Assembly: GCA_950295325.1 (NCBI GenBank)
Contig: OX485806.1
Coordinates: 25,918,001 to 25,982,000, forward strand
Length of the DNA stretch: 64,000 nt
Direction of reading: 5' to 3'
DNA from: Polytrichum commune
Lineage: Eukaryota; Streptophyta; Polytrichopsida; Polytrichales; Polytrichaceae
Of the stretch, positions 8,041 to 34,435 are shown one piece after another. Position numbers and translations under genes: made by a program. Each line of letters starts with the position of its first letter. Position 1 is the first letter of the stretch. The notes under the pieces were generated by a model. That model saw nothing but the letters and a program-made list of their open reading frames with translations. It did not search any database and was not told the DNA's origin.

Positions 8041-9207
8041 CACTACTACAAAACACGTCTTTTACAACTGGGTTTTCCAACTCATACAAGTGAGAAAACC
8101 AGGACTTTACTGACGTGGAAAACGACCAGTCGCTCCGGACAAGCAGTAAAGGAATATCGGACAGGACGTTCCCAATGGATACGTTCCCAATGGCAGTGAA
8201 GTTGGACTTGCGACGCGTGCCTTACTTCATAGAGTCATGTCCTATTTCACTATGTTTTGGCAATATAAGTAAGATACGACACACGTCCATATAACTCAAC
8301 GAAGTGATACAATATCACGGGCACTAGTCATGTAAGGTTTTGTTTACTTCACTGAACAAAGTAATACAATGAAAAATGTGTATACATACATTCCAAATTA
8401 CTAGTGAACGATAAGAACGTGGTTGAAACAAATATGTAACCACATGGCTAAGATTAATTGAATTAATTCTCACACATTACTTATTCCAGTAATCGCGGAC
8501 AACCAAGTGGGTAGTCAATAACGTTGCGTAGTTAGCTTCTTTGACTTTAGGTAGTAAATACATACAACAACTGCATATTTTCTTACTTCACGTCGTCATG
8601 TAAACATCACTGTCTGGAGTGATGTTTACCTCAACCAGTGGTTTATGATCTACGTTGTTAGGTCATGTGGTTCACGAATGTCTTTTTTGTGTATTACTAG
8701 CAGTGAAATATACATGATATTGCCAAGTGTATGTATAACTGTACGTAGTAAGTGTCTGTGACTACCAAGAGTGAATACATATTTAGATGGCATATATTTC
8801 TTACTCGAAGTCATGATATCTATATTACTATGTAACGTAATGTAGACAACAAATTCTGGTATTTTTTGTACGTTGTGAGGTTATGTGGTCTTCACATGTC
8901 TTTAGTGTATATTATTGGTACTGCAGTGAATATCGACTGCGCTAAGTGGCATGATTAGGCTGCAACTGTGCGCGTTTACTGCTACTAGTAACATGCGGCT
9001 GACTCAACATAGTCATAAATTTATGGCATTAATAATATATTGATATTTATCATACAAGGATCATCGCAAACATGATCATTTAGTTCAAAAACCAAATCAT
9101 ATTCATCCAATAGTATCATGAATGTTTCACAAATTGCTTCTAACAATGGTAAACACTGAATTCCAAATGTCTGCAAATCAACCTAGATCTACAAATCCAC
9201 TTCACAC
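8041..9207. promoter_or_regulatory. Left subterminal region of the CACTA element
   Basis: No protein is recognised here beyond the end of the TnpA-like gene. The sequence is AT-rich and repeats short words such as TACTTCAC, AAGTAATAC and GATGTTTAC in both orientations. In En/Spm elements, subterminal repeats bind TnpA, so these are plausible protein-binding sites, but that role is inferred only. Confidence 0.4.
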
Positions 9208-14060: not shown

Positions 14061-16670
14061 AAATTAAGTACACTACATATGATATAGGACCAGAATAAGG
14101 CAATACACAAAATAATATCTACTTTATATTTGAAGAACGGGGTCAAACATAAAAAATGTTTGCATCAGCCATTGAGCATAGCTTTAAAAGACATGTTTTT
14201 AAAAAAGATTGGACTGCACACTCAAAATTTGTTAACCATACTACTGTCAATAACCGACAAGTTAACGAGGTGCAATGTTCATAAAATTATGGCCTCAATT
14301 TGGATTTGCTAATTATCTCGCACTAAGCGTGTACTTGATATCCACAGAGAAGTGGGTGCAGAGCTAATAGTGTCCATTTCAGGCCCACTTACCTTGCTGG
14401 AAATTAGAACCTGCACTGCAATATCCACCAGGATTCACGAACTCAAAACGCAATAAGTAGGTGACTTGCCCAGTTTGGAATGCCTCACAATCCGAGTCCT
14501 GGCAGGTTCTAGTTACTGAAGAATTAAACCAGGCTCGCAAACTTGGAGCTTTTCGACTAGCTAGTACTCTTCACCAGCAAACCTGCTTACCCACTTCAGA
14601 GGCTCCATTGCACTTGTAGAAACTGCGCCAGTACTAGAGTAAGAGCTTGATGAAAAGTCACTGCGGATCAACACATGCATAATGGAATTTATAGCTGGAA
14701 AAACCTACTTACATTGAAATATTATCCACCAGAAACTCAAAACTAGGTGACCCACCACCCAGTTTGGGGTGCCTCAGGCTCAAAGTCCACAATCTCCCCT
14801 AAACCCCCTAGGTTCCCACGTTGTTTGGTTGTAAGCTAAATTGGATGCCAAAGTGATATCATTAAGTCTTCCCATAAGGCTATATTGGGCTACTTTCATA
14901 CCACTTGAAAAAATCTGAGTTTACATATGTGATAAAAATGAATAAATCTTATTTTTGCAAACAGCCTCATGAGAACCTTTATTATTAGCCTACCAAGTCT
15001 TTGTTTGATGAAATAGTCGTTTAAACCAAAACCTTACAAGGGTGAGAGGTGATGAATATACACCATACTCTTGCATTCATTGCAGCAAATATGCAGACCA
15101 TATGTCTATACATCACACTTTGCAGCTTACAATTCATATAGCAAAATCAAAATATAAGTATTTAAAGACCCACGTCTGACATGAAAGTCAACAGTTTGTA
15201 GTATTAACTTGCGAATAGCTGCAGCAAAACAATGAGTTTTTCAATCTAAAGCAACAAACACCTGAATTGCTGGGCCTGACCCTGGACACTACATACCTTA
15301 GCGTAATGTCAGCCATCAGTCTATGACAATTCAATTCTTGACTAAGATCTCCACTGAGAGCTTAGACTTATATTTTCGTTCAAACAGTCAATTAAAACTG
15401 CAAAATGACAAAACTTGGAAAACTCAAACAAACGAGATGTGCACCTTTGCAAGTGTAATAGCAGACGGGTCCAATGAGCATGGGATCAGCCCACTTGCGA
15501 AGCTCTAAGGTATGTGGTTGTTCTTCAGTTTTTTGTACATGTTCTCCAACTTCTACCAATTAAATTAACACAACACAACCTGTGGTACATTAGCAAATCT
15601 ACAATGAAGCAGCAGCAGAAATCAGATTGAGAATGGGACCACCTCTATTTAGTTATGGTTATCAGAAGTGCAAGTTTGTTGATTCCTTAACTGATCACAT
15701 AGGTCCTCCCAGATGTATTCAATATTGAGTGTGGAGTAGTTAATTAAAACATAGTCCAACCTCTGATATATACATGTCTTTATAATGTTTGTTCTTTGAT
15801 CCTCAGATAACCACACACCAATCTAATATAGGTGGCTGGTTAAGAAAAATAACCAAATAACACTCGCACACCTTATGTGAAGAATGTTGTCTCCTATTTT
15901 GCTCCAGCTTGAGGACTCATCTTCATCTGTATATAGTTTCACACTGGCAGGCAGCCCACTTGTGTCCATAAAACGCAATGCAGGTTATGAGGCCACTGCT
16001 CTTAATTCCGCCAAATCTGATAGACTATCAGCCAGAATTTCAAACTTATTGCACCTACTCTGCCACTTGCTGCTAAAACAATCCAAGGCTGCCAAACTCC
16101 CCATTTCTCCCACTCTAGTAGGGTTCAGGTGATCTCTTGTCCCTAAACCCTAATGACAAGATCTGCCTGAAGCGGCATTGATTTTCACGTCCAACATCAC
16201 TTGAATTTATATCCATTGAAGATCCAACAATGAACCTAAGAGGAAAAAAAGATTGATGGAGACCATCCGCATGTCCTTATGATATTCAATTCAATGCAGA
16301 TAAATGGCATGCAAAAAATTTCAAAGAGAAAGTGAGCAGCCACATGAAAGAGATTGCTAACTAGATCATCCACAGGATCCGTGAACTTACATGATGCATT
16401 GACCAAAAAATGACAATCATTGTTCCCACTGCATAGCTCCTTCAAAAATAAAACTCAGCACTGAGAATAGAATGCACATTTTACGCCTGTGAGCATGATT
16501 GATTGAGACTATGGCAATCAGTTGGTGACTAATGAATGAGTTAGAATACCATAGAGTGCTTCCGCATTCGACTTTTTAATTGATGATTGTTCTTAAACTT
16601 TTGCCACGTGGCAGTCTTACATTGTTTGAGACCATTCAAATTCCACATGGAAATTATAGTTGGCCATCAA
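14061..16670. other. CACTA interior, possibly with captured host fragments
   Basis: No intact gene is visible. A block near 14,400-14,530 (TATCCACCAG ... CTCAAAACGCAATAAG ... CCCAGTTTGG.ATGCCTCA) is repeated, diverged, near 14,710-14,790, a ~300 bp tandem duplication. On the minus strand, 16,132-15,884 can be read as LAALDCFSSKW- and LSDLAELRA-like text, reminiscent of leucine-rich repeats. Stops break it and I do not trust the match. 16,445-16,236 (minus) holds a 69-codon ORF of unknown type. The sequence could be captured host DNA that has decayed. Confidence 0.3.
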
Positions 16671-16715
16671 GTAGTGAAGTGGGTGTTGGAATAAAAGACG
16701 TGTTTTGTAGTAGTG
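16671..16715 (+). mobile_element. Orphan internal CACTA right terminus
   Basis: These 45 bp are identical to 34,391-34,435, the right end of the large CACTA element, including the final GTAGTAGTG. The sequences upstream of the two copies are unrelated. The next bases (CCT) do not match the ACT duplication at 8,038, and the flanking DNA is not LINE, so this is not the partner of the left end at 8,041. I found no matching left terminus for it nearby. Confidence 0.85.
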
Positions 16716-17869
16716 CCTCTACACAAACTTATTATTTCTGAAGAATGGGAGCATTTGGATGTGCATGAACTTAAGTTGGCAGCTAAAAAGGCGAAAGAGT
16801 AGGATGCCCTACGTCAAAAGAAGACTTATCATTCAAAAGACACTGACAACTGCAGATGTTTAGTCTAACCTACAAGAATGAGACTACTAATCCTAATTCC
16901 TGATGCTACTGGATTTCAATTTGGACAAGAATAAAATAAAACGTAAAAAACAGCTCAAACCCAAATTTGGGTGAAGAAATGGATTGTGCGTAAAGAAAAG
17001 ATGGTCACCTAAGCATGGAAAGGCAGCAGCCGAGGAAGCCAAGCGAGCAGCAGTTGTAAAGTTGTTTTCTGATGCGATATGGATGTGAATGTTGCTCCAG
17101 TCTTCTTTGCAGATGCTCTTGCTGGTATAATCGATTACCACTACATTGGCCCCAGCACGAATCCAAAGCTCTAGTCAAATCTGTCTACAAATACACATTC
17201 TCTTACAAGAGGACACTAACATATCACATAGACATCAAGTAATCAGAGGTCATTAGAATAAATCCATCGACTCCTCAAAATGAAGTGGCCTTCAAGAATA
17301 CAGCACATTGCATCATTCTGTGGCATCCACTAGGCTCCTGCAAGCACCCACCCTCACATGTTTCCCACTTTCTGTGAAATTTGACAATTTCCCCAGGACC
17401 CCATACTTGCAACCCTAAAGTTGTCCAGCGAAGACAAGTTGTCCAAATTTTGCAAAAACTGGAGAACATGTTCAGAGCTAACAGACTGCTGTTGCACTCA
17501 AATTGCAACATGCTGTTCACATCAGTAGGCTCGCCGAGACGCCACCTTTCAATCACTGCAGACGTGGACAAAAGGGTGATGAGTCGATCAAAGGCACTCT
17601 CTTCACAGGACTGAAAACCCTGGATCTCCTGGTTGCGCTGATTTCGTAGTGTAAACAAATTTAGTATAACCTGCACTCATTTCCCACACTGAATGGAATA
17701 ATCAGTGTAGTACCTGCAAGAGAAGGGCCGATCAATGTTATGAACCAAAATTAGCAAGGGTTCAAATTCTACGTAACCATGATCACAGATACAAAATATT
17801 AAGCAAACTATTTGTGATGAGAGGAGCACATGTGTATTTAAGAATGGATTCAATGTAAAGAAATCCTCA
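16716..17869. other. Captured or pre-existing DNA between CACTA parts
   Basis: Short coding-like pieces occur on both strands. On plus, 16,740-16,800 reads EEWEHLDVHELKLAAKKAKE before a stop. On minus, 17,141-16,893 encodes 82 codons preceded by an [10 protein letters not shown]-like phrase. Also on minus, 17,676-17,275 encodes 133 codons, and an alternative frame gives QNLDNLSSLDNFRVASMGSW, which looks like a leucine-rich repeat. None is complete. A host resistance-type or ankyrin gene fragment is possible but not shown. Confidence 0.3.
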
Positions 17870-18541
17870 CTGGGTGTGGGAGTCCAAATTCGACGGAAAG
17901 ACGGAAATACGGAAATACGGATTCAATTTCCGTATTTTACCTTGCTTATCTGAGGATAATAGGGTCTATTAGGACAAAATTAATGGTACTAGGAAATAGA
18001 GTAGTCTAACCCCGCCTTGTGCGGTAAAACGACTCTAAATAAGTACTATGACCGGTCCGTCAAATAGGATGGGCGGACCATGTAATCATGGTCCAAACCC
18101 TTGGTCCGGACCAAGTGACGGACGCGCCAAGATTACCCAACGGCCCGGAAGTGGCGGTTACAACGGGCCTTATGGCGGTTGGGGGAAAAGAGAGCCGTTG
18201 GTGAAAATGTTAGTAAAACCGTTGGTGGGAACCGCCGGAAAACGGTTGGTAACCGTTTTCCGTTAAACCGAACGGTAACAGGGGAAGGAAGAGGGAGGAA
18301 AGATATTTAAGGGTCCCTTCCTTCTCCCTCCCACTCTTTTCTGGAAAAAGGCAACCTGTTGAGAGAACGAGTCGTGAGGTGTTCCTTCTTTCGAGCCGCC
18401 AGCAGTTGGATTGCTGGGACTCAGCACTTTTCAGTCACCGGCAGTGGGCTTGCCGGGACTCTGTGGCACCTAGACGGAAGAGAAGGACTCCGGAAGAGAG
18501 AGAGAGAGGTTGCAAGCCAGAAAGGGTGAGAGGAGAGGAAA

Positions 18542-20614
18542 ATGCCGGAAGCACGGGAAGAGGATCAGCGGGAACCCATCCCGATTCCGCTGAAAGCCCT
18601 CACCCCTGCAATTCCGAGGGAGGATAGAGAGCTGCAGGAGCTCGCGGAGGATCTCAGGGTCATGGGTTGTGCGGGATTGCTCTCCAAACCCTGGAATCTC
18701 AGAGCGGAAGATACCCTCCGCGAGTTTAAATTCGAGAGGGGAAATCAGTGGCTAGGCACAAAGAGGAGGGATCCGGAACATTGGACTCCGGATACGTGGA
18801 ACAGGGTCTACGGGTTTCCCAGGGGAATCACGGAGGGGTGGGCCGGCCGCCGCGACGGCCTGTTCGCCGGGAAATTCAGAGGGGACGCGGATCCAAAGGA
18901 CGGATTCCACCCAGGGAACTGCCGGAATATTAGGGAGCGGAGAGTGCTAGAGTTTCTCCTGCCCATTCTCAATCCGGACAAGCCGAAGCGGATTAACCTC
19001 ACCATGGCTAACACGCTGTTTGGTGCAATGTCCGGAGTCCGGCCGGTGAATTGGGGCCTGATCATCCAGGAGATAGTCGGACGGGCCCTCCCCCATATTG
19101 GCCGGAAACCCTCCTTCCTCTCCCCCTTCATTTTGCACCTCTACCAGCATTTCGACTGCATCACGGCAGAGGAGGAGGACCTGCTCACAATAGCGGCGGA
19201 TGAGGTCACCTACAAGCTGCTCCCGGAAGCCGGAGACGTCGAGACGGAGACCTCCAGCGACCCTATTCTTCCGGAAGCACCTCCCTCATCACCCGGAAGC
19301 CCGCCACCAACCGTCTCGAGGCCACTCTCTCCCCCTCCCCCGCACCAACATCCGGAAGCCGGACCCAGCCGGGAGACCCCATGGCGAAATGTGGACCTAT
19401 CCGCTTGGGACTTCCCGGAGAATCCATTCAAGCGGTTCCAGGAGGGGATGGAGGACCTCAAGACCCAGTACTACCGACTGGAGCACATCGTCAAGGGGGC
19501 GAACCATGCTCTGGACGACTGTGGACCCGGAAACATTCTCCGGGAATTGGCAAAGAGGGCGGACCGGAAGGAGCTGGAGCAGGCCAAGACGGAGAACGCC
19601 CACCTCACCGCACAGGTAGCGGCTATGACCCAGGAGCTGAGTCAGAAGAGTGAGGAGATCCGGAAGTACCATGCGGAGCAGGCAGTGCTCTTCAGCCGGA
19701 TCCGGGAGCTGGTGGGTCATCCGGCGGAGATCGTGAACAAGGCACATCTCTACGACCGGATGATGGAGTCCGGAGAACCGGCTTCCGCCAGGCAGACCCT
19801 CCCCATCCTCGTGAAGTATTCACGGACGATGAAGGATCTCCTGGCGGAAATCCAGAGGGTGGTCCCGCCAAGCGGAACACCGCGGAGGGTGCTCTATCCG
19901 GGTCCGCCAGGGTCACCAACCGGAACCCTCTACGAGGTGGTTGGTGAAGTAGCCCTGGTTCAGAATCCGCCGGCCTCTGCAGGACCCAGCCAGCAAGGAG
20001 GCGGCTCTCGGCCTGGTAATTCCGGAGGGGCTCCGGAAAGGGTCCATCCTCCCCAGGTGAGGCGGAAGAGCACCGGGTCGGTCCGATCCGGAAGGGGCCA
20101 CTCCCCTGTTCCGCGGAACTCGGATAGGTCCCGGACTCCGGATAGGGCTCGGACGCCGATCCGGCACCAGACTTCCGATCGGGAGGCCACTCCGAGTAGG
20201 GGCAAGGCTCCTATGACCCACGCCTCGCCATCGTCTCCACGGGACTGCCAATTGGTGAGTCCATTTCCTCCGCCACACTCGAGAGCGGCCTCCAACAGGG
20301 ATCCGCGGACGGCTTCACTCTCGGGTGGACGGAATCCGGAGCAGGGCACCGGAAGCGATCCTTCTCCAGTCCGAAGCATCCGGATGGGGACAGCTTCCGG
20401 AACCCCAGGGACAGTCTCCGGGACACCAGGGACCGCTACCCCACGGACCGAGAGGGCAGCGGATTCGGAGGACGAGGCTGCTCCGTCTCCGAACATGAGG
20501 AGGATGCTCACGCGGCTGCAGAAGGCGTCGCCGGCCGGGGGCTCATCCGCCATCAGCGGATTAGGGAGTCACTCAAAGGAGGGATCGGCTCCGAAGAAGC
20601 ACCGGTCTTCTTAA
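18542..20614 (+). CDS. 690-aa ORF of the GC-rich element, gag-like or unknown
   Basis: One uninterrupted frame of 690 codons fills the core of the GC-rich insertion. Residues 1-240 are the ordered part: FKFERGNQWLGTKRR, VYGFPRGITEGWAGRR and RRVLEFLLPILNPDKPKR are followed by a hydrophobic helical stretch (NWGLIIQEIVGRALPHIG) and ITAEEEDLLTIAADEV. Residues ~240-290 are proline-rich. Residues ~330-395 look like a coiled coil (RADRKELEQAKTENAHLTAQ onward). The C-terminal ~230 residues are Ser/Pro/Arg-rich and probably disordered. No zinc knuckle, protease or polymerase motif is seen. The layout (helical domain, coiled coil, basic tail) suits a gag-like structural protein, but I cannot name the family. 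The first in-frame ATG was chosen; it sits ~230 bp downstream of the TATA-like motif. Confidence 0.7.
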   Translation: MPEAREEDQREPIPIPLKALTPAIPREDRELQELAEDLRVMGCAGLLSKPWNLRAEDTLREFKFERGNQWLGTKRRDPEHWTPDTWNRVYGFPRGITEGWAGRRDGLFAGKFRGDADPKDGFHPGNCRNIRERRVLEFLLPILNPDKPKRINLTMANTLFGAMSGVRPVNWGLIIQEIVGRALPHIGRKPSFLSPFILHLYQHFDCITAEEEDLLTIAADEVTYKLLPEAGDVETETSSDPILPEAPPSSPGSPPPTVSRPLSPPPPHQHPEAGPSRETPWRNVDLSAWDFPENPFKRFQEGMEDLKTQYYRLEHIVKGANHALDDCGPGNILRELAKRADRKELEQAKTENAHLTAQVAAMTQELSQKSEEIRKYHAEQAVLFSRIRELVGHPAEIVNKAHLYDRMMESGEPASARQTLPILVKYSRTMKDLLAEIQRVVPPSGTPRRVLYPGPPGSPTGTLYEVVGEVALVQNPPASAGPSQQGGGSRPGNSGGAPERVHPPQVRRKSTGSVRSGRGHSPVPRNSDRSRTPDRARTPIRHQTSDREATPSRGKAPMTHASPSSPRDCQLVSPFPPPHSRAASNRDPRTASLSGGRNPEQGTGSDPSPVRSIRMGTASGTPGTVSGTPGTATPRTERAADSEDEAAPSPNMRRMLTRLQKASPAGGSSAISGLGSHSKEGSAPKKHRSS

Positions 20615-21049
20615 TTAGGGGAGTGGCTAGATTGATTAGGCAGAAGGGAGGTAGGCAGGTAGGACTTAGGAGTTTTTGAAGACGATTAATAAAATTTTCC
20701 TTTGGTAGTGTCAGCGGAAAACCCGGATCTGGATCCGGGAAATCCGGGAGACCGGGGGTAGTTAGGGTTTTCTTGAGCGGCGGCCGCTTGGGCCGCCGCC
20801 CTCAGTTTAGGGATTTTTGAGCCTCTACTTAAGGCTGAATAAGGAGCTTGAGGGGGGTTCCTTCTCCATTGTTGTATTGTGGTTACTCCTACCCTGAATA
20901 AATGTCTTTGCTTCTCACCCCTTGACTTCTCTTGATTGATGTGTGTGTGAATGACCCGGAGATCGTTAGTGGAAGAGAAAGGGAGGGCATGAGGGATAGG
21001 AGTTCCGGATAGGACATGAGAGAGGAGACCCGGATCAAATCCGGTTACC

Positions 21050-21545
21050 GCCTTGTAGATCCTCTCTGAGTGTAGTGGGAGGGAAACCTCACTAATCCGG
21101 TAGGTTGGGTAACGTCTAGGTGGGATAGCCGCTGGGAAGATTGGGTGAGATCCGGAAGGAATCCGGACTTACGCCAATCTGATCTTCTGAAGAGGTCCCA
21201 CCGTCCTTAGACGGACCTGCCCGGATTAATGGTACGGATCGCCTAGTTATCTCAGATTGAGTAGAATCCAAGGTAAAGGTAGCCGGACAGATCCGTCGGA
21301 CGGAGAAGGAGAGGTCCGGATCGGTAAGGATTTCGATAGGAGGCCACCTCCGGAGTGCAGTAGGAAGAGATCCTCATTGTTCCGAATGCCTGGGTAACGT
21401 CCATGTGAGATAGCCGTCGTTAGGACTGGGCAAGATCCGGAAGGTGCCGGACTTACGCCATCCGACCTTCTGAAGAGGTCTCACAGTCTTTGGACGGGGT
21501 AATCCGGAAAGTGGTACGGGTCACCTACTCATCCCGTCGAGTTAG
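21050..21545 (+). repeat. Diverged 285 bp tandem duplication in the 3' part of the GC-rich element
   Basis: GGGTAACGTC starts at 21,107 and again at 21,392, and each is followed by GATAGCCG, AAGATCCGGAAGG-like text, GGACTTACGCCA and CTTCTGAAGAGGTC. The two copies differ at many positions, so the duplication is old relative to the insertion. Confidence 0.75.
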
Positions 21546-22004
21546 ATCTCCGGTTGGAATCCGGACTCCTCTGGCCACTATGGTCCCAAGAAACAATCCA
21601 GATCTCTCTGCGTGACCTGCCAGGACGGACCTGATCAATCCGGATTGGTTGTGAAGGAGTTCCCGGATTCTAACCTTATCAAGGACGTCTTCACCGGAAG
21701 AAACCAATTATTCTAGAGCGTAGACGTAAAGGGGTGGGTAAGTATTATAAAGAGGACCTAGAAATAACATCCGGAGAGGTACCCTCCGGAAAAAGGCTAA
21801 GAATGTCCCCAAAGACCAAATATCCGGAAATTAGGATTTCCGGAAATTTGGCTAAGGAAGAAGAAATAAGCAGGTACGGAGAGTTTTAGACCTCCTACAC
21901 TTCACAGAATCCCTGGACGATACTAGGGTCATCCGGACAACCCGGATTAGGCACTTAAAACCGCCAATCCGGACATTTTGGTGTTCGCGTGTCCCCACAC
22001 TGGG

Positions 22005-22543
22005 CTGCAAATCTTAAGACACATCGAAACAATGATGTCACAAGCGTCAATCTGATGAAATCCTGGAAATGGGTCAGTTGTGTTTGTCTACGCAAGTGAG
22101 TGTGCAGTAATCCAAAGAAGTCGAACAACATTGGATGTCATTACAAACTGAATTCGCTGTGGTAATTTGTTGTTACACCAGTAAATGTGACATTGGAACA
22201 AAAATATCTACGCCGTAAGTGAATTTTGGCAGCCATCAGAAAGGCCTACAGCTTCATGACATAAGCCCTTCGGCTCCAGGAACCTGTAGTGTTGCCTCCA
22301 CAACGATAGTAGAACAGCTGAATGAATGAGCTTTGAAGACACCAAGAAAATAAATTGATCTGTAGGGAAGGCCAATCTAGATCTGTTCACAGTCAAGGAC
22401 TCTGCATCGACATCCTAGTATTCAAATCAAGATGGTAAGCACAATTGGCCCAGCTACAAATTAGTCCAAAGGACATCACCGCATTTCTATGACGATCTCT
22501 GGCTACGAAAAGCTTGACTAAGGTTTTAGACACTGCAAATAAG
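22005..22543. other. Continuation of the DNA split by the GC-rich insertion
   Basis: This directly continues the sequence that ends at 17,869. A 62-codon minus-strand ORF (22,396-22,208) is open but unrecognised. I see no other feature. Confidence 0.4.
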
Positions 22544-23508
22544 TACAGTCTAACCTTGATAATGTCACACCATCCGTTCCACCAAAAAGAGTGATATAAA
22601 CAAGGTGTGACATATTTGATAATGTCACATTTTGAAGATTTCTGCATAATGTGATATTATCAAAAAATAGATAGAAAATCAAAATAAAATTACAATGTTA
22701 AAAAGAAAATAACAAATACGAGACTTCAATGTTTTTTAATGTAAAATCTAATTCAAAATTGTGAATAACAACAAGAGCACATCATAATGTGTCATTGAGA
22801 TCAGGTAAAGACCTCTCACTAGAGACAAAGAAGCTTCTAATGTCACATTATTTTGTTGATGTTAAATGTGCAACACCAATTCTAATGAGTTTGTCATGGA
22901 TTTTTTCCATTCCTAACAACTCCAAAGTGTTGAAAATTTGAGAACCTTGGCTAGCCATAAAATTCAAAACATCTTTAGCATATTTTTGTGCATCCCTTAG
23001 CTTCACTACTTTAGATTCATCATCACTGCTATCAACAATCAATGGATCTACTTCCATGGAATCAAGAACATGTTTGCCATCTTGCACTAATTGCACAAGC
23101 TCCTCAGTAGAATATTCCACCTCAAAATCATCTTCACCTTCCATGTTTATGTACTCCAAAGGACAAAGCTTTCCTACAGGCTTGCCTTTGACATCCAAAC
23201 CCAAATTCAATGTGGCGATGAGGGTTGGTGCACGATCAAGTTCCAAGAATAGCATTGCATTTATCACAGGGGCGGCGCATGACCCTTTTGGCTACTACAA
23301 TTTGTCCATCAAACCATCACATACAATCCATCCATACTTGGTATTATCACATTTACACTACGGATTTTGGAAAAAAATAGTGACATTACCAAGGGTGATA
23401 GGGATAGTAACAAGGGAGTTTTACACTATGAAAATCGGTTTCAAACTTTTAGGTGACAATATCAAGGTGTTCTATTAACAAGGGTGACATTATCAAGGTT
23501 AGACTGTA
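22544..23508 (-). mobile_element. Internally deleted pogo/Tigger-like element, TA duplication
   Basis: The element spans 22,546-23,506 (961 bp) and is flanked by TA on both sides. Its ends are near-perfect inverted repeats, CAGTCTAACCTTGATAATGT plus CAC on each side. TA duplication and CAG-type ends are the signature of the Tc1/mariner superfamily, pogo/Tigger branch. A full-length element would be 2-3 kb, so most of the transposase gene has been lost. Confidence 0.9.
22848..23267 (-). pseudogene. C-terminal remnant of a pogo/Tigger-type transposase
   Basis: This 139-codon minus-strand ORF inside the TA-flanked element contains YSTEELVQLVQDGKHVL, an acidic VDSSDDES stretch and LRDAQKYAKDVLNFM. 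Such acidic, helical tails are found downstream of the DDE nuclease in CENP-B/Tigger-like transposases of plants. No DDE residues or CENP-B helix-turn-helix are present, so it cannot act alone. The assignment rests mainly on its position between Tigger-type ends. Confidence 0.5.
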
Positions 23509-23843
23509 GAGCGTTTGTCAAATCTTCTGTCATGACTTAAAAGCCGAAGAAATTTGGAGAGACAACGTCCAGAAGAGGATGACTGTATAAGTAGACACTT
23601 TTAAGTGAACGACCTGACCGATCAATAGCTTTCTTTCAGGACACAAAAGGTGACCCACCAGGATGTACCTTTGACTCTGTCACTCATTGAAGGGAAACAA
23701 TAGACAGACAATGGTCTGCATGTAGAGGTTCGAACTTGAAGAAGATGGATATTGCAGACTTACTAAAGAAAGAGCATGAAGAAAGCCACTCCGGATCAAT
23801 TACACACTGCATCGACATGGAGTTCTGGCTAGAAAAAACTTAC

Positions 23844-25666
23844 ACTGCTGTGAGGCCAAACCCCCCACCCTTAAGCGTCCGTAGTCCGAGTAGTGGGTTT
23901 GGGCTCACATTCCTCCGCGGTATTGGATTTGGACTTGGATGAGTCCATAGTGCAAGGTTCACCCTTCAAGTGGTCTTGGATTTAACTTTGGTCTTTGCTT
24001 CCTTTGTCTTGCCATCGCGAGAGTGCTCCACATTCTCCATTAAGTTGTGCACGTGGTTTATTTTTAAAGAGAGGATGCAAGTGTTAAAAAAAACACTATT
24101 CTCTATAGTCAATCTCAAATACATTTACTTGTGAAAGCCACACATAACACTAACTAGCATAATGTAACTAACTACTTGTCTATGAGCTAATTAGGTAGGC
24201 TATCTACTAAGCTCCTTCATGAACCCATCTCTTTACTTTCTAATTACATAAACCTAGCTCCTTCATAAACCCAGCTTCTTAGCTTCTAACTAAACAAACC
24301 CAGCTCCTTCATAAACCCAGCTCCTTCATGAACCCAGCTCCTTAGCTTCTAACTAAACAAACCCAGGTCCTTCATAAACCCAGCTCTTTACTTTCTAACT
24401 AAACAAACCCAGCTCCTTCATAAACCCAGCTCATTCATGAACCCACAACTTTGTAGTTGTAATCCCCAACTACCTCACTAATTATTCAAGCCCTTAACTA
24501 ATCTTCCTACCTAATTTCCCTAATTCTACTAACAACCCCTTTCTAATCACACAATTCTTCTCTAATCCTAAAATCCTAAAATCCTAGAGAGGAGAGGGGG
24601 AGAGAGAATTTCCTAACTTCACTAAGACTAACTAATCCACACAAGTATATTTTTGCACTCATCACAACATCAAGTGCTCAACTCTTAAACATGGAACTTG
24701 CAACCACGTGTATTCAAAACATGAACTTAAAGTACCACAAATTGGAATCATGAATTAACTTTAAAATCCTTCACGTCAACACTAATTCTACCAAGAGGTC
24801 AAGCCCTCTTCAAGGCTAACAAGCCTTGGCTCTCAAACTAAAAACTAAGCACACACATGTGCTCCAATATGGCTTCCCACACCCACACTTATAACTCGTG
24901 GGGTGCCTTGGAGCACAAAGGAAAGAGAGGATGAGTGAGGGAAGAATGAGGGATTATATAGTAAGCTTGAGGGGGTGAGCACCCTCAAGGCTCACGATAA
25001 GCCCTTGAGATTTCCTCCTACTTAGTAGGCGCCAATCCTATCTTCTAAGCCTTCCTCCCTCAAATGATCAACAAGGATCCTAATTCGAACATTTAACTAG
25101 CCTTGGCTTTCTACCTACCACACTTTACCAAACTTGGGATGTTTCAACCCAAACTTAGCCTCCTTCGCTTTCCGCCGCCATAACTTTCTCCCCTTACTTT
25201 CCCAAATCGTCGCTCACCACTTAATTCAAACCACGATGCTTAACTCGTGATTTGATTGGTGCTTTGAGAATTTGCTTATCCTCCACCTTGCATTCTTCCT
25301 TGGGCCTTCCCCATTAAGTGGCCATGATGAGGTGGTCCACTTGTGCGCTCCATGTGATCCTCCATTCATCCCAATTCGAATGCACTTGCCTCTTGAGTCA
25401 CTTTGGTTGTCTCCATCCATTTGTACTAGCCTACTCACTAACTACTCAATCCAAGTTCTCCTTACCTATCCTCATTCACTCAAATCCTTCCGAAGGTAAA
25501 AACACAATAACAACTCACATCCTAGCCTCTTACAACATGGTACTTCTAAGACTAACATTTCACTCTTTTTATATTTTTGTGAAGTAACATGCTACTTCAA
25601 AGTGCATCAACTAACGTTTCAAGGGTCTAAGACTAAATGTGGGCACCCTTTTGGGCTCACAACTGC
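23844..25666 (-). mobile_element. Solo LTR, 1.8 kb, with ACTGC duplication (family L1S)
   Basis: The LTR spans 23,849-25,661, begins TGTGAGGCC and ends GGGCTCACA, and is flanked by ACTGC at 23,844-23,848 and 25,662-25,666. A relative at 62,583-63,658 has the same end sequences and its own 5 bp duplication. On the minus strand a TATATAATCC motif lies at 24,951-24,960, followed by a pyrimidine-rich stretch, so transcription was probably leftward. No internal retroelement genes are present. It therefore formed by LTR-LTR recombination. Confidence 0.85.
24205..24450. repeat. Tandem AACCCAGCTCCTTCATAA repeats inside the solo LTR
   Basis: At least eight imperfect copies of CCCAGCTCCTTCATAAA or CCCAGCTCCTTCATGAA occur, alternating with TTAGCTTCTAACTAAACAAA. 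The array helps to explain why this LTR is ~740 bp longer than its relative at 62.6 kb. Confidence 0.8.
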
Positions 25667-27146
25667 AACATACATAATCCCCCAAGAACTTGACTCGAAA
25701 AAGGTGCAGTACAACTCGATCAAGGGAGCCAACTCCGGCCAACTCACCAAATCTCGCTACTCCGGCGAAGATTGTGGCTGAAAAAACCCTAAGCTTTCCC
25801 TGCCCGTTGCCAACAACCAGAAATCATCCATTCCCACCTTCGCTAAATGCCGTTGAAACCTCAAAGCTGCACACAAACCTCAAAGCTACACACAACCTCA
25901 AAGCTGGGTCTCCGCTGCGTCCACGAGAGCTTCCGCTAGGGTCACCGCGTCTAGCAAGCTTCCCCTAGGGTCGGAGCCAGTCTTGCGGTCATCGTGCATA
26001 GTCTTCACACGGTGGCATTCGCCGTTCACACGAGAGCCCGAGGTGCTTTACGGCTGCAGGGCAGATTTTGCCCGTGGTAAATACTCAGGTAACATTTGAC
26101 TTTTCTGACCCTTATATTTCCCCCCTCTCTCAAGGGTTTGTTGGCTCTGTTTTTAGACAGAGACTATGCATCAACTTCTCAGTTTCAAAGAGTAAATTTC
26201 CTAACCACTTTGCGTTCACACTTGAATGTTTCATGCTATTTTTGGTCCAATTCATTGAATATGGATGTTAACTATAGTTATATACTTAGTTTTTGCTGTA
26301 GTGGCTACCTAGAATGTATTGAAAAAAATATAGTTAACTATACTAATTGTGTTGTGTATAGTAATGAAGGCTACCATTTGGAGTGACGTGTTGCTATAAC
26401 CTTTTACATGAAACTTTTTTTAGCAACTAAGTTATAGCATATCATTAAGTGCGCCGGCTAACTACTTATTTCATTTGTAATAGATAGGACACTCTCGGTA
26501 AAAGCTATATCAACACGGAATTCCAAGTATTAGCCCAAGTGTAGTTGACAATACAATGTACACTAAATATAATAAGATTTAATGTGTTGGTTCCAGCTTC
26601 ACATGTTCTATAATTGCCCCTTCAACTGTGAAGTAATGTCACTCTTTGAAGTAATGTGATTTACTTCATGGAGTAATGTCATGTATCAAACACATACTCC
26701 TTCACTTTGGTGTATCAATCACTGTGAAGTTCTACTATGTGAAGTTCTACTATTTGCGGGCACATCTACTTAATATCTAAAATTCTTCATGAATGCAGTT
26801 GAGAATCACATTCAAACTTATACACTCATGTCTGATTTGCTCTTCGACATATATTTCTAGGTTTTGCAATGACTTCCTAGTTTATATCTACAAATGTGTC
26901 GCCCAATGGTAAGTATCTAATTAACTGATGAACTACTCACATTATACGATTTTGGTTATTAAATTACATATAACTACATACAATTGTTGTTCACTGTGTC
27001 AACTACATACAATTATTACTCAACTACATACAGTTATTACTTAACTACAGTTGTTGTTCACTGTGTCAAGTAATGCTAATTACTACATCAAGTAACGCTG
27101 TCCATTTTAAGTAACAAGATTTTATTTGCTGAAATACAGATTCAAA
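25667..27146. other. CACTA interior upstream of the SET gene
   Basis: There is no clear gene. 26,120-26,290 matches 61,395-61,560 (GTTTGTTGGCTCTGT, AGACTATGCATCAACTTCT, TTTCCTAACCACTTTGCGTT), a dispersed repeat. From 26,600 to 27,120 the sequence is dense in CACTGTGTCAAGTAATG-type words, and this part probably contains the promoter of the SET/TNP2 arm. Confidence 0.45.
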
Positions 27147-28029
27147 ATGGACGGATCTGCAAGGCGCGCAATGTTGGACCTGGAGCTATGGAACTTGGAG
27201 GAAAAAGAAGCAGACAGACAAAGATTGGTTAAGTATCGATGCCCCTGTAGTATGTGTGCAGGGGGAAAGGTACTGTCTAGAGCAACCATACGGAAACATC
27301 TCCGTCGATACAAACGAGATCCCGCATTCACGAAATCCATATTGGTAAGTGTTATATTTGTGTTCATTCAATTCTATTGTTTTGTAATTGAGGCATTTTA
27401 ATTTTGATGTAATAACGATTCCATTCGTGTAGGCACAAAGAAGACCTTTTGTTGAGGAAGCAGCTAAGACGGCTATGGAAGAGTTTTTTAAAGAGATGAC
27501 AACCCCCACACTTGTCCCTCAAAAGAAAACTTACACTAACGAGGAGCTGAAATTGATGAATTGGAGGGTTGACAAATTCGATGGGCAGTGGTGTGGTGGA
27601 CCCATACCAAAGTTTAGTACTTTCAACTTTCATGATAGAAAGTGGGAAGTTCAAATTTCTAAGTTTTCGTTCATGGGCTGGGGTTTATTTGCAATGGATC
27701 CCGCAAAAGCAGGCGATATCCTTTTGCCATTTGTGGGGCCTCAATACACTAGGACAAAATACCGGAAGATGAAAAGTCTTGTACCCCGCTTCAAAAGCTA
27801 TGTCCTTAAAGTTGAGGATGACATTTACATCGACGGGAGAGTGGAGAGGGGCAATGTTGCAGGATTTATTAATAGCTCCATAGGGCGAGAGGAAATCGGC
27901 AATGTAGTGTGGGAGTATAGTTTGCTTCCAAAGCCTTGGAACAAGAACGAATGGGGTTTTGTTATGACCATTGCATCAAGGGATATAGAAGTAGGAGAAG
28001 AGCTGTATGCATATTACTCCGTGAATTAA
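27147..28029 (+). CDS. SET-domain protein with N-terminal Cys/His motif, encoded inside the CACTA element
   Basis: Two exons (27,147-27,344 and 27,433-28,029) join in phase 0 across an 88 bp GT..AG intron, giving 264 aa without a stop. Residues ~28-60 form a compact Cys/His segment, YRCPCSMCAGG ... IRKHLRRYKRDP, like the CPC-x2-C-x-HL motif in N-termini of plant TNP2-type proteins. Residues ~125-264 are a SET domain: GWGLFA (the GxG S-adenosylmethionine loop), AGDILLPFVG, YIDGRVERGNVAGFINSS, and IASRDIEVGEELYAYYSVN (the A-RDI-x2-GEEL-x2-Y core). The usual Asn-His-Ser is Asn-Ser-Ser here, and there is no post-SET cysteine cluster. SET domains methylate lysines on histones or other proteins; the substrate is unknown. 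It lies ~0.6 kb upstream of TNP2 in the same direction. Exon 1 could instead be shared with TNP2 by alternative splicing. Confidence 0.8.
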
Positions 28030-28621
28030 AATTGTGTTATTTTCTCTAAGATATGTCGCGTACGCACTTCATTGCATATTTGAATATCAACTTGCATTAC
28101 TTGACCTAGTGAACCCCAACTGAATGCAGTTAAAAACAAGTTAACCATTTGCATTCCTTATAACTATAAAAGGTTACTTTGAAGTTTCATGCAATGCAAT
28201 CTTATTGTAGACACATATACCTGATGAAAGTAATAAGGCATGTTGTGTTGGATAGCTTTACTTGATGCAGTAATTTGCAATACTCGACACAGTGAACTAG
28301 TATTGGATGAAGTTGAAAGTGCCAGAAGAGATCATGTGAAAGTAATGGTTCCTCCTGGATTTGTCGTAAACATACAAGGTTACTGGATCACAAAATGTAA
28401 TGATTTCTTATTCCTGATGCAAACACATGTTCAACACCAGGAGGCTTCTTGTGCTGGATAGTAAGATGTCGCCTTTTGCATTACTTGTCGTAGTGAGTAT
28501 CAACTTAATGCAGGTGAAAGGACTAGAAGAGAACATGTGCCAAAAATTTAACCCACTAGATTCAACATGTTGAGACATTGGATTAATAAGAGTAAATGTA
28601 TTGTTTCTTGTTGTTGATGCA
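28030..28621. other. Spacer or intron between SET gene and TNP2
   Basis: A 73-codon ORF at 28,240-28,461 has no recognised motif. The phrase GAAAGTGCCAGAAGAGATCATGTG near 28,315 recurs, diverged, as GAAAGGACTAGAAGAGAACATGTG near 28,515, so the spacer holds a degenerate ~200 bp duplication. Either piece might be an old exon. Confidence 0.35.
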
Positions 28622-29020
28622 CATAGAGGAAGTCAACAATGACATCTACACTGCTAATCGTGACATATGGAATGCGACACAAGAAGGGAGGTACATGACA
28701 GTAGAGGCAAACAATGATACGGGACAAGATGTAGATGGAGACATATTACTAGAATCAAATACGGAAACAGTGGAAGATAGCAGGGAGGGAGTGGAAGTAG
28801 TTCGGATGGTGAACGAGTGTTTCAAGAGGTATGATGGATTGCCCGCACGCGCAAACACCACATCACGCAATGAGGGTATGGAGGAAGAAGACGAAGGTTC
28901 ACAAGAAGACGAGGACGGGATGGCCAACATGGAAGTACCTTTACTTGAAGAGAGCAATGAAGAAAATGACTCAAGTATGGAGGATTTATTGAAAGAAGCA
29001 AGAACTCCGCTCTTCAAGGA

Positions 29021-30003
29021 TAGCTTGTCGCAACCCTTGCTAGCCCCCCTTGACAATCTTACCAATTTTCATTTCTAGCAAAGGTTACGAGCGCTAACCA
29101 TTCGCATTCCACCATGCTAATGGTTAGCTCCTCCTACCCCGGACCATATAGTTCATAGGAGGGAACCAACCCTCCTACTTTACTTTCGGGACTCACCCCT
29201 TAATCAGTAACCCATTCCTAGATGTGGACTTCCATCCATGGAAGTCCAATCCCATGTTGATCATCGCGTTGCCGGAGCAACACTAGAACAACCCGAACCA
29301 TACTAGGCAACTATGGCCTCACATTGGGCCAATGCCCATGGAGGCCGTGCCGTTCGGCCTCGGGTGGGTGAGGCCACACCACCTCACCCATATAAGCCTC
29401 TAGGACTTCACGCGGGGCCCCTACCCCACCGTCAACCAACCTCTTGTCTCTCTACCAAGAGTTGGGGCCAAGTGGACATTGTCCTTTAGCTGCTGGGCCT
29501 AGAACCCCCCAGCAGCTTCAGACCATCATAACTTCCTTGTATGATGTCTGATCATAACAACCAACCACTCCATCCTCATCTACGCTTCACGTAGATGCCG
29601 ATGGACTCCTCACTTGCCCCATTTGAGCAAGTCTTGAGGAAGTTATGCCTGTTTGAACCTTGGCAGTCCCGGGAATCACTCCCAGGCACTGCTGTACCAG
29701 GGCGCTGTCCCGGGACAGCGCCCCACTCAAATGGCCATAACTCCTAGCTCACACCTCCGATTGAGGTGTTCTTGAGCTTTCTAGAATCACCACGCCATGA
29801 GCTACGCATAACTTATGGACTTACCCTTGTGCCTCCTAATCTTCGTGGGTGGGAGGCGTTCCCAACGCCCGGGGCCCTCACCCACACTAGGATCACTTGG
29901 GCCCTCTCACCAACGGCGCCACAAGTCCTGGGTGTCACTCCGGGGTCCCCCTTGTGCCCATGGTGTTTCGGACACTCCTCATGGAGAGGTGCGCGACATA
30001 GCC
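29021..30003 (+). mobile_element. Solo LTR, 973 bp, inside the TNP2 coding exon
   Basis: The insertion spans 29,026-29,998, begins TGTCGC and ends GCGACA (6 bp perfect inverted termini), and is flanked by TAGCT (29,021-29,025) and TAGCC (29,999-30,003), a 5 bp duplication with one change. A TATAAG box lies at 29,391. No retroelement protein is encoded, and the ORF that starts at 29,766 is LTR sequence running into TNP2. Deleting it restores the TNP2 frame exactly. Confidence 0.88.
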
Positions 30004-31172
30004 CCACCAACCGCTTGCAAGCAATCCTAATGCTCCTCAATGTATGCAACATTTTTGGAGTTCCTAACGCATGTGTGGACGAGTTGCTAAAGTTGCTTAA
30101 ACATGATCTACTCCCCAAAGAGAACACTTGCCCTCCTTCACATTACGAGGCCAAGAAATTAGTGAGGAAGTTGGGTTTAAGCTACAACACTATTCATGCG
30201 TGCAATAATGAGCATTGCTTGTTCAGGAATGAACTGAAGGACGCGAAAGAGTGTCCTCAATGCAAAGAATCGCGGTATATTCCCGGTAGTGACCGCATTC
30301 CAGTGAAAGTGTTGCGACATTTTCCTCTTATACCTCGGTTGCTCCGAATGTACCGTTGCAAACGGTTGGCAGAGCTTATGACGTGGCATGTGGAGGGAAA
30401 AAACAATGACAACAAAGTGAGATCGGTAGTGGATTCAAAGGCATGGAAACACGTGGACGCAAGGTGGCCGGACTTTGTGAAGGAGCGAAGAAACCTACGT
30501 TTGGCACTAGCCTTGGATGGTGTCAATCCATTTTCCAACCAGTCTTTAAGTCATTCAACATGGCCAGTGATTTTGTTAAACTACAATTTACCACCATGGC
30601 TAGTTACGAAACGGTTTTTTGTGATGTTAACCCTAATCATTCCCGGAAAAGAAAGTGTGAAAGAGGAGAATATCCATGTGTATTTAGCACTACTTATAGA
30701 GGAGCTTCAAAGGTTGTGGAAAGGCGTGATGGCAATAGATGGATCCGTTTTGGAGAAGGGGAGTTCAAGTGAGGGGAGTATTTATTCCACAAACCCAAAT
30801 TTCAACCTTCGTGCGATTCTTATGTGGAGCATACATGACTTTCCGGCGTATGGGTTGCTTGCCGGACAAGTAACGAAGGGGTATAGGGGTTGTCCCCCAT
30901 GTGGGCCACATGTGTCAACGAGGAGGTCCAAGTCGTTGGGGAAGAACGTTTACCTCGGTCATCGTCGTTACTTGGCAATGCACCATCCGTATAGACGCCT
31001 AAAAAATAGCTTTGATGGAGAAGAGGACCACCGAGGTCCCCCGCGGGTAATGTTTGCACATGATCAATTGCGGTTTGCAAAACAAAGAGAAGACTGGTTG
31101 GCAAGCTCGACTGAAAACAAAGAAGGAGACAAACTGGATCCAATCCACGAGCATGGAGTGAAGAGAAAGAAT

Positions 31173-31975
31173 GCACTCTTTGTATTACCATATTGGAAGG
31201 TACACACTAGCGACTATTGTAATACTTTGTGAAGTAATGCATGTTTATTAAACGTAAACACATTTTACTGTGTGAGGTAATGCATAATGACTAGAGAAAG
31301 TAAGTGTTCACTTATAAATGCATTTTTTCTAATACTCTAATACTTATAGAAGTAATGGTATAGTCATATCGGACAACCATTGTTTCAACACTTTGCAACA
31401 GTTTAATATATGGGAGTAACTTAGGTCTTGCAACAGTTTAATATATGCAGCAACTTAGGTTTTGCACTCTTTGCATTACCATATTGGCAGGTACACACTA
31501 GCGACAATTGTTTTATTTTGTGAAGTAATGTATGCTTATTAGAAGTAAACACACTTTACTGTGTGACGTAACGCATAATGATTGGAGAAAGTAAGTGTTC
31601 ACTTATAAATGCATATTCCATAATACTCCAATACTTATAGAAATAATGGTATAGTCATATCGGACAATCATTGTTTCAACGTTTTGCAACAGTTTAATAT
31701 ATGGCAGTAACTTAGGTCTTGCAACAGTTTAATATATGCAGTAACTTAGGTCTTGCACTCTTTGCATTACCATATTGGAAGGTACACACTAGCGACTATT
31801 GTTTTACTGTGTGAGGTAATGCATAATGACTGGAAAAAGTAAGTGTTCACTTATAAATGCATTTTCCCTAATACTCCAATACTTATAGAAGTAATGGTAT
31901 AGTCATATCGGACAACCATTGTTTCAACACTTTGCAACAGTTTAATATATGGCATTTGACAGACAGTGTACTTAA
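31173..31975 (+). repeat. Triplicated 291 bp unit carrying the TNP2 exon end and splice donor
   Basis: GCACTCTTTG(T/C)ATTACCATAT begins at 31,173, 31,464 and 31,755, a period of 291 bp. Each unit contains the last codons of the TNP2 exon (ALFVLPYWK), a GTACACACTAGCG donor-like sequence, GTGAAGTAATG-type words and CATATCGGACAA(C/T)CATTG. Three nearly identical donors therefore precede one acceptor at 31,998. Confidence 0.9.
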
Positions 31976-34052
31976 CCAAATTTTGTGTGCACCAACAGGG
32001 TCTTCTTATACGCAATACATTGGATGTAATGCACTGCGAGAAGAACATCACAGAAAGTCTTATGAAAACCATATTTGGGAAGAAGGATACACTCAAGGTT
32101 CGCATGGATTTACAAAAAGCCAACATACGGCCGCATTTGTGGCCCATACCGGGGAGAAAACCAGGAAGCCTCACTTTGCCACAAGCCCCATATGTGCTCA
32201 CAAAGAACGAGAAGGAGGTATTTGTGGATGTTGTGCGGCAATTGAAAACTCCAACCCACTACGTGGGCCAATTGCGGAAAAGAATTAACGTGGATGGGAC
32301 ATTGAAAGGATTGAAATCCCACGATTACCATGTCCTTATGCAACAAATTTTGCCCCTTTGTGCACGCACAATCATGAAAAAAGAAGTGCGTATATGCATA
32401 ATAAGATTAAGCCGCATATTCAAACGGATATGCGCTAAAACCATCAATCCGTTGGAAATGAGTTCCTTGAGAGAGGATACGGCCATCACCTTGTGCATGC
32501 TTGAAAAATAGTTTCCATCGGCATTTTTTGATGTCATGACGCACCTTGTGGTGCACTTGATTGAGGAATTAGATATTTGTGGGCCTATACATGTCCGTTG
32601 GATGTATCCTATGGAGAGGTATTTGAAGACATTGAAGGGCTATATTCGAAATCACAATAGGCCCGAAGCTAGTATGACCGAAGGATATGCCATAGATGAG
32701 GCGCTTGGCTTTTGCACGGAGTACATAACGTCATATTCCATTACAAGTCGCAGGGTATGGGACGACAAAAAGGATCCTACAATGAACGACGAAATATTGG
32801 AAGGTATTGGGCGACCAAGGATACTAACTCCCAAGATACGTGAGTGGATCCATGAATTTATGGTGAATAATGTGGTTCCCTTGGAGTCGTGGAGAGAGTA
32901 AGTTACTTTATAACTTATGTTCCTGGCCGTGACATTATATTCCAGGCACAATGATATGTTAATGGTATGCATATTATAATTTCACTAGTCTTACTATGCA
33001 ATAACTATACGTAGTAAACGTCTGTGACTGTCAAGAGTGAATAAATATGGAAATGACATATATTTATTACTTGACATAGTGATATCTACGTTACTATGTA
33101 AAGTAATATTAACAAAATATGAGTGGGATTTGAAAGACAACATAATATTGTATTTTTCTGCAGGCGCCACACCGCAAGCATGACACAGCGTAAATTGGAT
33201 CGTGAGGAATATCGAAGGAAGAAACGAAATGGCAGGATTGTCTATCCCGAAAATCTCCAAGATGAGCCCTTTCACAATTGGTTCAAGTTAGAGGTTTCAC
33301 GTGCCAAAGCGGCGGGAGAGGAGATTGATGAAGATGTATTGGTCTTGTCTCTTCCACCCTCTAGCCAAACAACATCTTACCGCTCCATGTATGCTTTTGG
33401 AAACCATATCTGTGTGCGAAGTGCAGAGGGGACATTGATAACATGCGACTCTGGCGTGGCCGCCACCTTCTCACAGAATTGTCGATCAAGTGCACGTGCC
33501 AAGAACATGAAGGCGGCGAACTTGGAATATGTGGGATGGATGGAGGAAATATTGGCCGTAGACTATGGTCGATATGAATTGGTTGTGTTGTATTGTAATT
33601 GGGTGATGGCAAATATGGTTGGACACAATGCCACCATGAAGCGAGATGAGTATGGGTTTAGCCTAGTGAATTTTGATAGGTTGGTACCATTATTTGCCGA
33701 ATCTTTCGCATTTCCACTCCATGTTGAACAAGTTTTCTTTGCAGATGATTTGAACAATCATGGGTGGAAGGTGGTTCTACAGAAAGAGCCAAGGGGAGCA
33801 AGAGTTGTTTCCAACAAAGATTATATGCCGGACATAGGTTGCCTATCTCTAGGCAACGTTGAAGAGCATTGTGGTTTGGTGCCCGCATCTTTAGAGAATG
33901 ATGCAACACCAACTGACCCAATATTGGATGAGGTTGTGGTTTTAAGCAACAACGAAGTGGTCGTAGCTTTAAACGCAATTGAGCACGCATCTCCTTTTGA
34001 AGATGATGATGACTTTGGAATTGAAGAAGATGGAAATGTTCAAATAGATTAA

Positions 34053-34435
34053 ATTAGATTATGTTAGTTGTGTAGAAATGCCTCACTGTATATAAATGTG
34101 TACATTCCATTATGAATTGTAAAACGAGACGCCCCTTTTTGGTGAATACTCAGTCTAAACCCTTGAAACACATGACAATCTGACCTGGAAATCTTTCCAA
34201 ATCAACCACTTCACTACCCACAGTAATGCACGTTCCATTGGGTGTTCCCAAGCACGTTCACACGTGCGTTCTCAACTGAATTGTTGTCCTACTTCACTAC
34301 CATGACTCCTCAAAGTAAATTCGGACATTGAATGAACAACATTGAATTTCGTGCATTCCCCAAATCACTCTTCATAGTAGTAAAAGACATGTAGTGAAGT
34401 GGGTGTTGGAATAAAAGACGTGTTTTGTAGTAGTG
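34053..34435. promoter_or_regulatory. Right subterminal region and terminus of the CACTA element
   Basis: This is non-coding DNA between the TNP2 stop and the right terminus. It contains repeated TTCACTAC and CGTTC words and ends in the 45 bp segment also found at 16,671-16,715. Confidence 0.6.

Follow-up and report, generated by a model that had tools for sequence, protein, structure and literature searches.

Co-inheritance of a SET-domain gene with the TNP2 transposase in CACTA transposons of Polytrichum commune

The SET gene

The window analyzed here, a stretch of 64,000 nucleotides from Polytrichum commune (contig OX485806.1, positions 25,918,001 to 25,982,000 of assembly GCA_950295325.1), carries a two-exon SET-domain gene at 27147-28029 on the forward strand, as the original prediction had claimed. 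Exon 1 (27147-27344, +) encodes a 66-codon Cys/His head that is similar to the Transpos_assoc domain and corresponds to the N-terminal exon of the transposase TNP2. It is followed by an 88-bp phase-0 intron with GT..AG borders (27345-27432, +) and by exon 2 (27433-28029, +), which encodes the 198 residues of the SET-domain portion and includes the stop codon. The reading frame is open in the window copy, and the joined product has 264 residues. In a profile search, Pfam SET (PF00856) matched residues 148-261 over positions 1-104 of the 105-position profile, with an E-value of 7.9e-10 and a score of 39.5 bits against a curated cut-off of 22.4 bits; the products of three other lineages also score above the cut-off (E 1.7e-9, 8.5e-7, and 2.5e-5). 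Profile matches of the SET protein to chains of known structure include ASH1L (E 9.7e-6) and SET1 (E 1.2e-5). These profiles point toward enzymes of the H3K36 or H3K4 type, at a strength too weak for naming a substrate. A one-sequence fold prediction for exon 2 alone gave a mean pLDDT of 34 and did not confirm a SET fold.

Eleven aligned SET proteins share the invariant residues G82-W-G84, Y132, N147, G188-E189, L191, and Y195, the last of which belongs to an ELxxxY motif and is presumably the catalytic Tyr of SET domains. The motif with its Tyr is present at 38 of 45 loci. Only a few residues separate this conserved Tyr from the end of the ORF, and no post-SET Cys cluster comes after it. The NHS-type motif reads NSS at 32 of the 45 loci, NNS at four, NSF at two, and NSY and NST at one each, and was not found at five; in all 40 loci where it was found, the Asn is conserved and the His replaced, and none carries NHS. 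The Asn-Ser-Ser that had been noticed in place of Asn-His-Ser in the window copy is therefore real, and it is a property of the family as a whole. Decay of the window copy was considered as its cause and rejected, since the His is replaced family-wide. PRDM-type SET domains also lack NHS, and some of them are active.

The surrounding element

The SET gene lies within genuine CACTA borders and in the direction of TNP2, which is found downstream on the same strand. The whole element spans 8041..34435 (+), a length of 26,395 bp that includes nested insertions, and is flanked by the target-site duplication (TSD) ACT at 8038-8040 and 34436-34438. Its left terminal inverted repeat (TIR), CACTACTACAAAACACGTC, at 8041-8059 (+), is identical over 19 bp to the right TIR at 34417-34435 (-), where CACTACTACAAAACACGTC is inverted. 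Three matches to CACTACTACAAAACACGTC occur within the window against 0.02 expected by chance, and exact copies number 43 forward and 39 reverse genome-wide, against none for the backwards control. Homology to copies L001, L002, L004, and L005 ends exactly at 34435, and that to L003 one base further. Two full-length relatives end as the window element does: C1:6010256-6028008, of 17,753 bp with TSD TCT/TCT, and C6:26950416-26964162, of 13,747 bp with TSD GTT/GTT. All three full elements examined therefore have perfect 3-bp TSDs (ACT, TCT, and GTT). CACTA-type TIRs, a 3-bp TSD, and a TNP2/TnpD transposase together identify the element as CACTA (En/Spm); its transposase is TNP2, and not the Harbinger transposase of HarbingerS elements. 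A second perfect right-type TIR lies inside the element, at 16697-16715, without a matching left repeat. The same left-right-right order of TIRs is seen at C4:50099544-50121715 and C3:5356102-5376275. Genome-wide, 18 facing pairs of exact TIRs stand 4.2-7.2 kb apart and are probably short, non-autonomous members of the family.

TNP2 (PF02992, E 8.5e-66) is followed by DUF4218 and DUF4216. Its N-terminal body exon (28629..29024, +) begins at a phase-0 acceptor, with the AG at 28627-28628, and is interrupted by an insertion of 973 bp (29025..29997) that is absent from L001-L005. Further along lie the transposase core exon with Transposase_21 (29998..31232, +), the C-terminal part with DUF4218 (31960..32901, +), in which the window copy has a stop at ~32510, and the DUF4216 exon (33123..34052, +). 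A divergent minus-strand gene occupies the left arm at 10780..13854 (-), with ORF blocks at 13854-13384, 13171-12569, 12098-11640, and 11319-10780. It is conserved between the window and the C1 copy and has one stop in one block of the window copy that the C1 copy lacks. The label TnpA given to it in the original prediction was not confirmed, as a Pfam scan of this gene returned no confident family. SET had also been described as the only intact gene of the element's arms. This holds in the window copy, where TNP2 and the minus-strand gene both carry stops, but not in the C1 copy, which lacks the TNP2 stop at ~32510 and has an intact, uninterrupted TNP2 exon of 552 aa. Exon 2 of SET differs between these two elements by one synonymous and one non-synonymous change.

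Several other features were noted in and around the element. A tandem duplication of 291 bp, in 2.2 copies, covers the last part of the TNP2 core exon and continues into the following intron (31172-31824); it is repeated also in L001 and L003. GC-rich DNA nested in the left arm holds an ORF of 694 aa (18530-20614, +) that is gag-like by eye and gave no confident match in a Pfam scan. DNA past the right end of the element has LINE-like ORFs (34310-37385, -), with RVT_1 at E 7.8e-17 in 35372-36169. The motif CTATGTCAAGTAATG occurs in the window at 9644-9809, 27033-27104, 28249-28297, and other places in the element. With up to three mismatches, it is found 24 times in the C1 element, spread across the arm and introns, against 0-2 times in 10 controls, and the count for the C6 element is 16, with Markov controls giving 0-2; the 29.6 kb to the right of the window element hold five copies against 0-1 in controls. 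Copies ahead of the head exon are in forward orientation and those between SET and TNP2 in the opposite one, forming inverted repeats that flank head and SET. The copies of the motif are possible candidates for binding or RNA-pairing sites.

Copies across the genome

A search of the species' own genome (407.8 Mb in seven large contigs) with the SET protein returned 170 matches, the best 150 of which merged into at least 116 SET loci; counts from these searches are lower bounds. At 79 of the 116, a listed TNP2 match lies within the pairing range of 8 kb upstream to 12 kb downstream, and every one of these is downstream and on the same strand, whereas in 200 draws of random placement the number of pairings averaged 0.285 and never exceeded 2. 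SET upstream of TNP2, the arrangement for which a genome search had been proposed, is thus a recurrent one. The distances between SET and TNP2 cluster by lineage, at 764, 944, 1153, ~1230, and ~1300 bp. Eight of the 37 unpaired loci were inspected, among them the four with the highest identity to the window across the length of the SET exon. TNP2 core sequence is present at L044, L045, and L072, the N-terminal part of TNP2 at L043, L073, and L074, and head and SET only at L042 and L075.

No near-identical host SET gene was found among the listed matches examined, including the eight unpaired loci. Three SET queries from diverged lineages brought out no host SET gene among the places listed; the further diverged SET places were mostly fragments with stops, and one group of them (L048 and L049) was opened. 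The group belongs to a far lineage located at C3:52.9 Mb, C5:1.8 Mb, and C1:31.0 Mb, of which L048 and L049 are the C3 and C1 copies. Their SET is 29-31% identical to that of the window and still scores above the Pfam cut-off, their TNP2 is 44% identical over ~45 residues, and the order of SET followed by TNP2 is kept. SET as a component of the element, as the original prediction had it, is borne out by these loci and by the lack of a near-identical host gene among the matches examined. A viral or prokaryotic source was also considered and set aside, as no relative was confirmed by tblastn in the viral contigs or genome contigs scanned. Within the far lineage, the SET exon at L048 (C3:52943600-52947600) and that at C5:1795593-1796177 are 100% identical in protein, and this identity on two chromosomes suggests recent movement.

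Co-inheritance and loss of SET

The loci were assigned to clade I/II (window, L001-L006, L012, L014-L020), clade III (L007, L021-L032, L040), clade IV (L008, L010, L033-L035, L038, L041), and clade V (L009, L036, L037, L039, L044, L045). Distances between SET proteins follow those between TNP2 proteins, with a Mantel r of 0.937 over 43 loci (0 of 9,999 permutations). The correlation persists within clade I/II (r 0.870, 15 loci, 0 of 9,999), clade IV (r 0.918, seven loci, 25 of 9,999), and clade V (r 0.936, six loci, 280 of 9,999), and is not significant within the tight clade III (r 0.438, 14 loci, 785 of 9,999). The SET tree and the TNP2 tree give the same four clades, and single SET-less rows fall inside them.

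Two clades of TNP2 have no listed SET nearby, one formed by L046, L050-L054, L056, and L057 and the other by L058-L061; for L050-L054, L056-L061, and L064-L067, SET-less means that no SET match was among those listed nearby. We also inspected the DNA upstream of L055, L062, and L063, designated L071, L070, and L069, respectively. L069 retains only a SET tail, L071 has the head together with a questionable beginning of SET (E 0.16), and no SET was seen in L070. The TNP2 tree implies a minimum of six gains or losses of SET, or of four when its well supported branches alone are relied on, and does not separate gain from loss. On the evidence of the genome sequence, SET is dispensable for the spread of the element.

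The Cys/His head and its splice sites

The original prediction had seen a Cys/His motif, like those at the N-termini of TNP2-type proteins, fused to SET. The likeness to TNP2 is upheld. Transpos_assoc (PF13963) matches exon 1 of the window with an E-value of 4.7e-4, below the cut-off, as in all SET-bearing lineages scanned, and matches the head of the SET-less relative L047 above it (E 2.1e-8). In L047, the head and the TNP2 core share one uninterrupted frame. In a second SET-less relative, L046, the head exon has a GT donor and the next exon is the TNP2 body, SET being absent from the interval; the L046 head itself carries one stop. The notion of a fusion made for SET does not hold, since this head forms the first exon of TNP2 itself. 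The SET exon of SET-bearing copies would be placed in the intron between the head and the body of TNP2. A weak U-box match overlaps the Transpos_assoc stretch, with E-values of 2.3e-5 for the whole window protein and 8.5e-5 for the head of L007. We set this reading aside because in L047 Transpos_assoc shares a single frame with TNP2; a distant U-box likeness of the head is possible.

The splice sites are conserved. The head donor is GT at 40 of 42 loci, the exceptions being the decayed L042 and the intronless L047, and the SET acceptor is AG at 32 of 34 scorable loci. Phase-0 acceptors also stand at conserved positions ahead of the TNP2 body exon, for example ...cacatacag|GAGGTC for clade I/II and ...ttggcag|GGACCG for clade IV; the acceptor for clades III and V was chosen among several and is less certain. 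With a conserved phase-0 donor and phase-0 acceptors, either the SET exon or the TNP2 body exon can follow the head in frame.

Selection on SET and TNP2

Rates of substitution in SET exon 2 were estimated from the 22 of 44 fetched SET-bearing loci that passed an intactness filter, and those in TNP2 from 26 loci, with the window and its closest copies left out. The median dN/dS of SET exon 2 is 0.173 at dS 0.4-0.7 (16 pairs) and 0.168 at dS 0.7-1.2 (16 pairs), close to the 0.175 (10 pairs) and 0.155 (six pairs) of TNP2 over the same ranges. The dN/dS comparison that had been proposed among copies thus reveals purifying selection on SET exon 2, at a level like that on TNP2. At dS 1.2-3, SET is looser, with 0.248 (21 pairs) against 0.134 (eight pairs) for TNP2, and among near-identical copies SET has ~0.5 (14 pairs) and TNP2 has 0.94 (13 pairs). 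Synonymous sites are saturated in 130 of 231 SET pairs and 242 of 325 TNP2 pairs. The head exon has a dN/dS of 0.138 (24 pairs, dS 0.4-0.7). In the diverged copy L006, DNA similarity to the window spans 27143-28030, almost precisely from the start to the stop codon of the SET gene; none is found between SET and TNP2, and it returns at 28575, ahead of the TNP2 exon. The dN/dS values and a similarity bounded by the start and stop codons indicate that the SET gene is maintained, not merely carried.

Proposed mechanism and alternatives

Reasoning from gene structure and motifs, we infer an ancient plant-type CACTA (En/Spm) lineage that inherits a SET gene together with its transposase, and we give this reading, with the splicing and targeting described below, a probability of about 65%. 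The head would be spliced to the SET exon, whose own stop codon would terminate a head-SET protein, or the SET exon would be skipped to yield head-TNP2, the transposase. The identical N-terminal head on both proteins would help recruit them to the element's own DNA, and head-SET would act as a small lysine methyltransferase brought to that DNA. Its likeliest purpose would be to keep the element transcribed despite host silencing, by H3K4- or H3K36-type marks, with restraint of the element a less likely one. A broader proposal, which we put forward tentatively and at somewhat less than even odds, is that one pre-mRNA gives rise to either a transposase or a histone methyltransferase with a common element-recognizing head, and that elements of this kind mark the copies of their own family genome-wide.

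The same layout could arise if SET and TNP2 were separate genes of the element, the head being SET's alone in SET-bearing lineages and TNP2 starting at its own ATG; SET would still be an element-encoded methyltransferase, lacking a shared targeting head. Of the 22 loci at which the acceptor and an open frame can be scored, 15 have such an ATG in frame ahead of the acceptor proposed for TNP2, and ~570 bp separate the SET stop from the TNP2 ORF in the C1 copy. The ATG is absent, however, from the other seven (L006 and L019, and in clade IV L008, L010, L033, L034, and L041), where TNP2 seems to need the head exon, and SET-less relatives have the head within TNP2, so that we regard separate genes as improbable. 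Nor do we favor a captured host SET exon that is copied along without a function for the element. CACTA elements do capture pieces of host genes, 22 of the 44 fetched SET-bearing loci fail the intactness filter, and some elements have lost SET. Against such a passenger stand a dN/dS of ~0.17 over dS 0.4-1.2, equal to that of TNP2, the same gene order in a lineage whose SET is ~30% identical, and the absence of a near-identical host gene among the listed matches examined; we consider it very improbable. The one-off capture of a host gene was rejected outright, given at least 116 loci, their pairing with TNP2, and purifying selection.

Two further alternatives concern what the SET protein does. 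It could be a SET-like module without enzymatic activity, a scaffold or a dominant-negative factor, and interfere with silencing by binding nucleosomes, SAM, or host SET complexes, as the replacement of NHS by N-x-S or similar wherever the motif is found and the lack of a post-SET Cys cluster after the conserved Tyr would allow. Nonetheless, 11 aligned proteins under purifying selection all share the GxG, the Asn of the motif, and the C-terminal Tyr, and the activity of some PRDM-type SET domains speaks for an enzyme in spite of the missing NHS; a protein with no catalytic role is therefore unlikely in our judgment. About as doubtful is a SET protein that limits the element, controlling its copy number by self-silencing in place of protecting it. 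TNP2 lineages with no listed SET are also present in many copies, so SET would be unneeded for spread, but clades I-IV have lost SET less readily than would be expected of a gene that restrains its own element. The reading we prefer, of a methyltransferase targeted to the element by the TNP2 head, would make this a direct case of a plant transposon that writes chromatin on itself, provided that the protein is active, and the arms race over silencing could then be tested with one protein and one repeat family.

Relation to known systems

In maize En/Spm, a single transcript serves both tnpA and tnpD, and the tnpD frame is placed in intron 1, as outlined in PMC2613891. The elements described here share the CACTA ends and the TNP2/TnpD transposase with it, and the splicing of two proteins from one unit is proposed for them by analogy with that outline. 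They differ from En/Spm in having SET as the proposed alternative product and in that the exon to be shared would be the N-terminal head of TNP2. The alternative splicing of tnpA and tnpD gives the layout a precedent in the superfamily; for the SET product we found none. SET genes have been reported from HarbingerS and MuDR families in Phytophthora (Kojima and Jurka 2014, cited in PMC12730594). As that citation presents them, they are likewise DNA transposons that encode a SET histone methyltransferase, an activity that is predicted here, and they belong to other superfamilies and another host; in our elements the transposon is TNP2/CACTA and the SET exon would lie in a transposase intron, and the comparison covers superfamily and host.

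According to the account in PMC12730594, fungal DNA transposons, EnSpm among them, carry TET/JBP dioxygenases that are proposed to counter silencing. They resemble the present case in having an epigenetic enzyme gene aboard and a proposed anti-silencing role. Theirs, as described there, is a DNA demethylation enzyme that has passed between superfamilies, whereas SET follows the TNP2 tree here. The same account mentions the VANDAL anti-silencing proteins (PMC12730594), which are element-encoded, sequence-specific regulators of silencing. A regulator of silencing encoded by the element is also what we propose. VANDAL elements belong to the MuDR superfamily, and their anti-silencing protein is not known to be a methyltransferase. 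SETMAR joins a SET domain to transposase parts and is a single host gene derived from one transposon copy; the SET gene described here, unlike SETMAR, belongs to the transposons themselves. Our survey of the open-access literature brought up no CACTA element described as carrying a SET gene. As far as we found, then, the known idea of transposons with chromatin enzymes extends here to a further superfamily and takes a new form in its gene architecture.

In the usual picture, transposons receive histone marks written by the host. This family keeps an enzyme-like SET gene of its own, held under selection and wired, in the arrangement proposed above, into the transposase gene, with SET proteins that diverge down to ~30% identity. 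The family also bears on annotation: 90 of the 119 Pfam-SET matches in the genome fall in the transposon SET loci, and counting them as host genes would inflate the apparent repertoire of histone methyltransferases.
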